Source: a bacterium
Lineage (GTDB): Bacteria; UBP6; UBA1177
NCBI GenBank assembly: GCA_017405875.1
Contig: JAFQZM010000017.1
Coordinates: 62,001 to 126,000 of the forward strand
Direction of reading: 5' to 3'
DNA length: 64,000 nucleotides
The translations under genes were made by a program, and so were the position numbers. Shown here piece by piece: positions 24,398 through 26,036 of this stretch (the stretch's first letter is position 1; every line of letters starts with the position of its first letter). The notes beneath the pieces are model-generated. The model saw only the letters and a program-made list of their open reading frames with translations, had not been told where the DNA came from and did no database searches.

Positions 24398-24408
24398 TTG
24401 CAGATCCG

Positions 24409-24434
24409 ACGGCTGTTCAATGCTGTCTGTCTAA
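24409..24434 (+). repeat. Intergenic repeat, copy B
   Basis: 26 bases containing GGCTGTTCAATGCTGT, 12 bases after the mnmA stop. It matches copies A and C at 21 of 26 positions each. Confidence 0.6.
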
Positions 24435-24491
24435 GAAATATTCTTTAAAATAAATTCTCTTCACTTTAATTAAAATTTCTAATTTTTAGTC

Positions 24492-24519
24492 TTGACAATA
24501 AAGAAAAGTTGAATAGAAT
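24492..24519 (+). promoter_or_regulatory. Promoter of the RNA/nuclease cassette
   Basis: A perfect TTGACA, 16-base spacer, TAGAAT. Transcription should begin near 24526, about 160 bases before the nuclease start codon, leaving a long leader that ends in a terminator. Confidence 0.65.
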
Positions 24520-24525
24520 AGATGT

Positions 24526-24676
24526 TGCAAGTAACTCGTGTGCTTGCTTTGCGTTGATCCGAAGTTCTGGGCTGGCATCCAGTTCTTCGTGGAGCTCTCG
24601 ACGGGTTCGGCATTCAGCCACAAGCCAGCAACTAAAATGTCATTAAAATGCTTGCTTCCTGCAAGCATTTTTTTTT
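24526..24676 (+). ncRNA. Candidate structured RNA (leader or antitoxin-type RNA) upstream of nuclease gene
   Basis: About 150 nt between a consensus promoter and a strong intrinsic terminator, with no plausible open frame. The ends GTTGC (near 24524-24528) and GCAAC (about 24628-24632) can pair, as can GCTTG/CAAGC and CCGAA/TTCGG inside them, with an apical GAAGTTCTGG/CCAGTTCTTC hairpin (8 of 10 pairs). That gives one long irregular hairpin. Two related segments, GGGCTGGCATCCAG (24569) and GGGTTCGGCATTCAG (24603), start 34 bases apart. It does not match SRP RNA, tmRNA or RNase P signatures I know. Alternatives: an attenuator leader of the downstream gene, or a dispersed REP-like element, since the reverse strand reads like repeat sequences often seen in uncultured genomes. 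Confidence 0.4.
24645..24676 (+). terminator. Intrinsic terminator between RNA candidate and nuclease gene
   Basis: AAAATGCTTGC and GCAAGCATTTT form 11 perfect pairs around TTCCT, followed by a run of T up to 24676. The nuclease ribosome-binding site GGAG starts at the next base and its ATG is at 24686, so only read-through transcripts can express the nuclease. Confidence 0.85.
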
Positions 24677-24685
24677 GGAGTTAAA

Positions 24686-25264
24686 ATGGATGTTTTATAT
24701 AAAGTTGCTTCTCTTTTTAAAGAACTGCTTGATACAGAGTATGTTTTTGTTCTTGGGAAAAAGAATGTCGAAGCAACAATTCATCTGATTTTTCAAGAGA
24801 GACATTTTCCTCATCTTGCAGGCTTGCAGCATCTTCCAGACCTTGTATTTTTGAAGCAGGATAACAGAATCATCTTTAATGAACTCATAAATCGAAGAAT
24901 AAAAATAGAAGATATTCAAAAATCGCTGTTTTATAAAAGTATAGAACGGAGACTTGCTACACTGCCATCTTTGCAGGCTTTGTTGGACAGCAATAAGACA
25001 ATTTTTAAATACAACAAGCAAAACAATAATTTTTCTCTGATAGATGCTGATTATCTGCTTGAAAACACTTCCGAAAAACAAACAATTTATATTTTTCTTG
25101 CTGAAAATCAGGATAGCAATTTTTTCTGCCGTTCATTTTTTCCGAAAGACAAAAAAGATTATTCGGTCGGGCAAACGAGATGGACTCTGCTTTTCAAGAA
25201 GAAAATCAATAAATCCACGAAGACTGAAGAAGTTTTGTTCCGTCATAAAAATTTTAAGGGATAA
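24686..25264 (+). CDS. PBECR4-type nuclease domain protein (Barnase/EndoU/ColicinE5-D/RelE-like)
   Basis: 192 residues. The pattern ERHFPHLAGLQHLPDLVF (about 38-55), then KSIERRLATLPSLQALLDSN and a late RSFFPKDKKDYSVGQTRWT segment with LLFKKKI, matches what I recall of the phage-type Barnase-EndoU-ColicinE5/D-RelE-like nuclease family 4. These are predicted RNases of mobile elements and conflict systems. Base composition is clearly more AT-rich than its neighbours. It follows a promoter, a structured RNA candidate and a terminator, and is bracketed by repeat copies B and C; together this looks like a laterally acquired cassette. No protein antitoxin gene is adjacent. The family call is from memory of motifs, and the activity is unproven for the family. 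Confidence 0.65.
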   Translation: MDVLYKVASLFKELLDTEYVFVLGKKNVEATIHLIFQERHFPHLAGLQHLPDLVFLKQDNRIIFNELINRRIKIEDIQKSLFYKSIERRLATLPSLQALLDSNKTIFKYNKQNNNFSLIDADYLLENTSEKQTIYIFLAENQDSNFFCRSFFPKDKKDYSVGQTRWTLLFKKKINKSTKTEEVLFRHKNFKG

Positions 25265-25290
25265 GTGGCTGTCCGATGCTGTTTGTCTAA
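25265..25290 (+). repeat. Intergenic repeat, copy C
   Basis: 26 bases (GTGGCTGTCCGATGCTGTTT and six more) starting at the base after the nuclease stop codon. It matches copy B at 21 of 26 positions, including an identical final GTCTAA. Confidence 0.5.
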
Positions 25291-25325
25291 AAATGCAGTC
25301 TGTCTGCTCATTTCCGCAACAATTT

Positions 25326-25397: not shown

Positions 25398-26036
25398 ATG
25401 AAAAAAATCTTTATTTTGGTGTTTGCTTTGCTTGTTCTTCTATCCTGCGGTGAGCAGTGGTCGGAAGCCTCAAAAGAAGCTATGACTTGGGAAGAAGCTG
25501 TAAAATATTGTGATAATCTCGGTGAAAAGGGCTATACCGACTGGCATTTGCCGACCATTGATGAACTTAGAGCCTTAATAGTGTACTGCGAAACGACAGA
25601 ACCTATGGGAAATTGTCTGGTGTCCGAAAAAGCAGAAGTGTGCAGGATAAGAGAAACGGAAGAATTCGAATGTTTCACGGCACCTGATTGCTATGCTCCA
25701 AGCAACACAAAACATGAAGAACTCAATCATCTTACATGGGACGATTTGAACCCTGCTCCAGTTAAACTTGCGCAAGATGCAAATTCCAATCCGCTTGAAT
25801 ATTGCATAAACTGTCTTACTTTCAGTGCAGACAATACGCAGTGCAGAGAGTGTGCCGACTGCAAAGGTTGTCAGGACGGAAAAAATCACAGCACTTTCGG
25901 TGATACTGGATGGTTCTGGTCTTCTTCGGCACGTTCGGAAGATGCTATTGTCGCTTTCCGGGTTAATTTCGACACAGGAGAAGTCGGAAATTACAATAAA
26001 GATCATAACGCCAAAGTCCGTTGTATAAGAAAATAG
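25398..26036 (+). CDS. DUF1566 (Lcl C-terminal-like) lipoprotein with cysteine-rich insert
   Basis: 212 residues. Lipobox LLSC (C17), then the DUF1566 pattern: MTWEEAVKYCDNLGEKGYTD, WHLPTIDELRALI, and near the end GWFWSSSARSEDAIVAFRVN and KVRCIRK. The domain is common on the surface of Gram-negative bacteria of this kind; in Legionella Lcl it takes part in glycosaminoglycan binding. Odd: between the halves is an insert with ten or so cysteines (CRECADCKGCQDGK), which could bind metal or form a disulfide knot. Composition is AT-rich compared with sppA downstream. Probably outer-membrane, surface-facing; ligand unknown. Confidence 0.8.
   Translation: MKKIFILVFALLVLLSCGEQWSEASKEAMTWEEAVKYCDNLGEKGYTDWHLPTIDELRALIVYCETTEPMGNCLVSEKAEVCRIRETEEFECFTAPDCYAPSNTKHEELNHLTWDDLNPAPVKLAQDANSNPLEYCINCLTFSADNTQCRECADCKGCQDGKNHSTFGDTGWFWSSSARSEDAIVAFRVNFDTGEVGNYNKDHNAKVRCIRK

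Follow-up and report, generated by a model that had tools for sequence, protein, structure and literature searches.

Does a promoter followed by a structured RNA, a terminator, and a nuclease gene constitute a toxin-antitoxin module in which the RNA restrains the nuclease? The question is raised by a cassette on the forward strand of a 64,000-nucleotide stretch of bacterial DNA (hereafter the window), in which the RNA belongs to the drum family (Rfam RF02958) and the protein to the PBECR4 family. The type III systems ToxIN/AbiQ, CptIN, and TenpIN possess the same succession of promoter, non-coding RNA, intrinsic terminator, and RNase gene, are likewise mobile, and also carry a pseudoknotted RNA. 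Their toxins have a MazF/Kid-like fold and their RNAs consist of a tandem repeat of ~34-50 nt (PMC5086642, PMC12373285), whereas the window has PBECR4 as the putative toxin and a single drum unit as the RNA. We put the probability at roughly three in four that the drum-PBECR4 pair is a toxin-antitoxin module resembling type III, in which the toxin comes from a new family and one folded RNA serves as the antitoxin. An RNA-inhibited toxin of a new family was already proposed in the initial annotation of the window; its RNA partner, its nuclease other than ToxN, and its type III layout are strongly supported by the linkage, the covariation, and the related RNAs described below, whereas its 34-base repeat is not.

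The cassette starts with a sigma-70-type promoter, TTGACA-16-TAGAAT (24492-24519), which matches 11 of the 12 consensus positions and from which we predict transcription to begin at approximately 24526. The predicted start coincides with the beginning of a 5' hairpin, P0 (24527-24547), located outside the Rfam model and followed by the drum RNA as Rfam delimits it (24549-24656). An intrinsic terminator (24645-24676), composed of an 11-pair stem with a 5-nt loop (24645-24671) and a subsequent T run, forms the boundary between the RNA and the ORF. The ribosome-binding site GGAG (24677-24680) and the PBECR4 ORF of 192 residues (24686-25264, ATG at 24686) follow. As read from consensus matches in the DNA alone, the locus has one promoter and a terminator between the RNA and the toxin gene, which is the arrangement of type III systems. 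The GC content of this patch is 34-41%, against ~48% in the flanking genes, and two copies of one genus-dispersed repeat bracket it: the left copy (24400-24437) has many matching places in 15 genomes of the genus, and the right copy (approximately 25265-25293) also has repeat matches in the genus. The initial annotation had described the promoter, the 11-bp terminator, the ribosome-binding site and ORF, the AT-rich composition, and the bracketing repeats correctly. Its foldable RNA of about 150 nt exists as a drum RNA of ~120-150 nt; folding of the single sequence is not better than that of shuffles (z = -0.76), and foldability alone therefore proves nothing.

The RNA of the window is a drum by model score. 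It reaches 45.5 bits with the Rfam model against a gathering score of 43, and 108.7 bits at 24506-24650 with R1, our own covariance model based on 30 drums, among which only some of the 77 PBECR4 loci introduced below are represented. Rfam types drum as an sRNA gene, and the motif reportedly stems from a 2017 NAR study of 224 candidate RNAs. In the freely accessible journal literature searched, beyond which earlier reports may exist, RF02958 occurred only in RNA-structure or Rfam papers, where we found no function, partner, or toxin link for drum.

The evidence for the drum structure is covariation, which had been suggested as a check and turned out to be strong, including a loop pseudoknot and the conserved 5' hairpin that the window transcript adds to the Rfam consensus line, from which both are absent. 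The seven pairs of P0 are 86% paired in 30 sequences, with compensatory change in five of them, and 97% paired in 80 distinct rows. Helix P2 (24559-24570 with 24579-24590) shows compensatory changes in all ten pairs. Its loop, GCUGG (24571-24575), pairs with CCAGC (24625-24629) to form a pseudoknot like those expected of type III RNAs, with 96% of cells paired and compensatory change in 5/5 pairs; the support holds on a larger alignment whose underlying model lacked these pairs. Helix P4 (24610-24612 with 24638-24640) is 100% and 88% paired in two alignments, all three pairs showing compensatory change. Taken over the 30 sequences, 92% of the proposed pairs are standard, 25 of 27 pairs change on both sides, and the pairing is far above every shuffle (in four of five measures) and column slide. 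This covariation is by itself not independent, because the helices were first chosen by scanning the same alignment; the larger alignment is better in this respect, yet has some sequences in common with it. Two related segments had been proposed to start 34 bases apart, but the repeat finder detected no internal repeat in the window RNA, making drum one folded unit rather than an array. Two or three drum copies per locus occur in L066 (1535-1940), L054 (1503-1955), and L029 (1796-3269), possibly representing an array or decayed modules.

The ORF matches PF18813 over residues 4-186 of 192 (E = 3.1e-37, 129 bits against a cut-off of 27), and PBECR4 is the only domain that Pfam finds in it. PBECR4 is a predicted BECR-class RNase domain that takes its name from polyvalent proteins of phages and plasmids, and BECR-fold RNases share a BECR core with a catalytic histidine in the N-terminal helix and a C-terminal Ser/Thr (PMC5512222). 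Based on Pfam and this domain analysis, the window protein is predicted to be an RNase. It has the PBECR4 domain and the conserved N-terminal-helix histidine in common with the phage polyvalent proteins; unlike these multidomain proteins (PMC5512222), PBECR4 of the window type is encoded on its own, by small genes that are paired with an RNA. His43, within the helix of residues 38-45, is conserved across all RNA classes, in drum and repeat clades alike, and position 89 is basic throughout, being Arg in the drum clade and Lys in the repeat clade. By analogy with BECR enzymes, the conservation of both positions fits a catalytic role (PMC5512222).

The AlphaFold model of the protein has a pLDDT of 95. 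The fold search against the PDB with Foldseek gave no match at E<=0.001; the best, non-significant matches include contact-dependent inhibition toxins, and ToxN is absent from the best 50 listed, in keeping with the earlier assignment of the nuclease to none of the known type III toxin families. No significant relative emerged from the PDB sequence search, no match from PADLOC and NCBIfam, and no paper naming PBECR4 from the freely accessible journal literature searched. Since no ToxN-like fold was found here and the tandem repeats that related PBECR4 clades possess are missing from the window RNA, the drum-PBECR4 pair should not be filed under ToxIN relatives.

The source genome contains two drums and two PBECR4 genes, forming two adjacent pairs. 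Within the phylum, where we searched for the RNA upstream of PBECR4 genes as had been recommended, drum and PBECR4 are confined to the identical 7 of 28 genomes, and PBECR4 lies ~40-50 nt downstream in eight of the nine cases; the ninth drum (L013) is solitary and without a terminator. The genomic surroundings differ among these cassettes. The mnmA gene and an sppA-like gene directly adjoin in G017 (L189) with no cassette between them, and G014 (L193) retains only a brief stretch of similarity, to the 3'-terminal part of PBECR4. The flanking repeat is present at many places in the genus, and this short dispersed element may aid the movement of the cassette. Cassette matches in other loci run into the repeat copies at 24400-24437 and 25265-25293 of the window. 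Further downstream, an Lcl_C-type lipoprotein gene (25398-26036) belongs to a multi-copy family, and segments of it match many places in the genus.

The linkage extends to other bacteria, as assessed with one genome per species and many metagenome-assembled genomes. A PBECR4-first scan of genome contigs yielded 77 loci in Bacillota, Spirochaetota, and the phylum of the window, of which 69 have a drum upstream according to R1. With the independent Rfam model, drum was found in 45 of 50 genomes, and 53 of 58 drums were located 38-329 nt before PBECR4. Because these 50 genomes had been selected by PBECR4 presence, we assembled another sample solely on taxonomic grounds, comprising 397 genomes of the family to which Hungatella hathewayi belongs. 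Of these, 35 contained drum and 63 contained PBECR4 (both in 29, drum only in 6, PBECR4 only in 34; Fisher p=8e-21), a p value that overstates independence because the genomes are related, and drums are undercounted because few candidates were scored per genome. Among the 42 drum matches in this draw, L139 lies at a contig edge and L164 (G403:C14) was not confirmed by R1; both were left out, resulting in 40 testable drums. PBECR4 follows 47-141 nt downstream in 28 of these, and five precede PBECR4 remnants (L142, L146, L154, L162, L163), which fits loss of the toxin with retention of the antidote. The remaining seven are solitary, with no detectable PBECR4 or remnant, and drum may therefore have another role. 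The RNA standing elsewhere without the nuclease had been named in advance as contrary evidence; this is the situation of the seven solitary drums and not of the majority.

The pair is present in Hungatella hathewayi and Eisenbergiella tayi. It also resides on plasmids of Enterococcus and Streptococcus suis, and an IS3-like transposase (HTH_21) element is inserted between drum and PBECR4 in L040. The co-travelling of both components across several phyla suggests a toxin-antitoxin system of a new kind, neutralised by RNA, with drum acting as the antidote; neutralisation itself is inferred from this linkage. A Planococcus plasmid carries a truncated PBECR4 gene (L023, 2974-3378) with no drum detectable upstream, and in L007 (833-1331; the same region as L035) an abiF RNA (RF03085) and an Abi_2 gene lie just upstream of drum-PBECR4, placing two modules of the RNA-toxin type side by side.

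PBECR4 genes lacking drum are often preceded by a different RNA and a terminator. With a tandem repeat counted when it outscored 99 or more of 100 dinucleotide shuffles, 28 of the 54 drum-less upstream regions had one, as opposed to a single one of the 58 regions with drum. Three kinds recurred. In the first, units of 32-33 nt fold into H-type pseudoknots, the stems of which vary while complementarity is kept in most units; L218, L224, L225, L226, L228, and L230 have two or three such units, then a terminator and PBECR4. In repeats of ~50-54 nt, the loops of three hairpins each bind a tail located at another place in the RNA, with 100% pairing in the 14 sequences in which these pseudoknots were first spotted by eye. 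Such unnamed structured RNAs with three covarying loop-tail pseudoknots are found upstream of PBECR4 among L167-L180 and L201-L240, and none of the 14 such loci compared with Rfam gave a match. RNAs with repeats spaced by ~82-84 nt precede PBECR4 in L205, L206, L217, L219, and L240 (by eye in L206 and L240). The RNA class follows the toxin tree, requiring 13 changes against 45 with shuffled labels on a FastTree phylogeny with many weak branches, and the seeming exception, L232, carries a divergent drum. Solo PBECR4 proteins probably constitute a large family of RNA-restrained toxins, paired with at least three unrelated RNAs: drum, the 32-nt H-type repeats, and the ~50-nt three-pseudoknot repeats.

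That RNA type and toxin clade evolve so tightly in step would fit any obligate ribonucleoprotein, including a defence effector in which drum is a cofactor or guide required by PBECR4 rather than an inhibitor, and the neighbours of drum-PBECR4 in G018 do include an abiF RNA together with an Abi_2 gene. We regard this reading as unlikely: drum has no variable guide segment that we could see, its changes are compensatory so that one fold is kept, and solitary drums outlive the protein, which would be odd for a cofactor. It is similarly improbable that drum acts in cis as an attenuator, its fold setting terminator readthrough into PBECR4 upon a signal without direct neutralisation. The position of drum in the leader, with the terminator just before the ribosome-binding site, and the linkage in both samples (53/58 and 28/40) would agree with attenuation, but drum survives, often near the full model score, beside decayed or missing toxins, and related PBECR4 genes carry unrelated multi-unit pseudoknotted RNAs at the same place, a habit of type III systems rather than of riboswitches. 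That drum is an independent trans-acting sRNA riding on the same mobile DNA, as its Rfam type and the solitary copies might indicate, is very doubtful given the narrow spacing in nearly all linked pairs, the constant order and strand across phyla, and the genome co-occurrence (p=8e-21). A REP element, offered initially as a simpler explanation besides attenuation, or a chance hairpin describes the flanks with their dispersed repeat and is ruled out for the RNA by drum family membership and covariation.

The layout, the pseudoknotted RNA, the co-variation of RNA type and toxin clade, the mobility, the occurrence on plasmids, and the persistence of the RNA after toxin loss jointly fit a type III-like toxin-antitoxin module. 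In such a module, one promoter would drive a drum RNA of ~120-150 nt, with most transcripts ending at the terminator and a minority reading through to produce the PBECR4 RNase. Once folded with its pseudoknot, drum would bind PBECR4, presumably also when supplied in trans, and block the active site around His43 and Arg89. When the RNA supply falls, for example because a phage halts host transcription, the block would be lost, and the freed, presumably toxic RNase would cleave cellular RNA.

Toxins without the ToxN fold have precedents in AbiF and the deaminase AvcD with AvcI (PMC10511110). In AbiF-RCd22 of C. difficile, comprising an abiF RNA (RF03085) and an Abi_2 protein, the RNA neutralises the toxin via direct binding (PMC12373285). 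Like drum-PBECR4, this system has a motif RNA upstream of the toxin; its protein and RNA are unrelated to those of the window, and the RNA contains two short motifs rather than a single drum. The orphan structured RNA drum and the solo PBECR4 genes of plasmids and gut bacteria gain a testable function from the proposed module. If solo PBECR4 proteins are RNA-restrained toxins, orphan drum would be explained, and a nuclease family would be added to the type III-like systems, RNA-neutralised toxins having arisen anew. If true, the acceptance of several RNA folds by one toxin family would also allow direct comparison of how RNA antitoxins evolve.

Among viral contigs, we found one drum-PBECR4 locus (L025). 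Phage records contained no relative of the PBECR4 proteins of the window or of Streptococcus, and two weak relatives of the repeat-clade PBECR4. In the Erysipelothrix phage phi1605 (L241, 1700-2060), a PBECR4 gene is preceded by a terminator and a repeat-type RNA that by eye resembles the ~50-nt kind.
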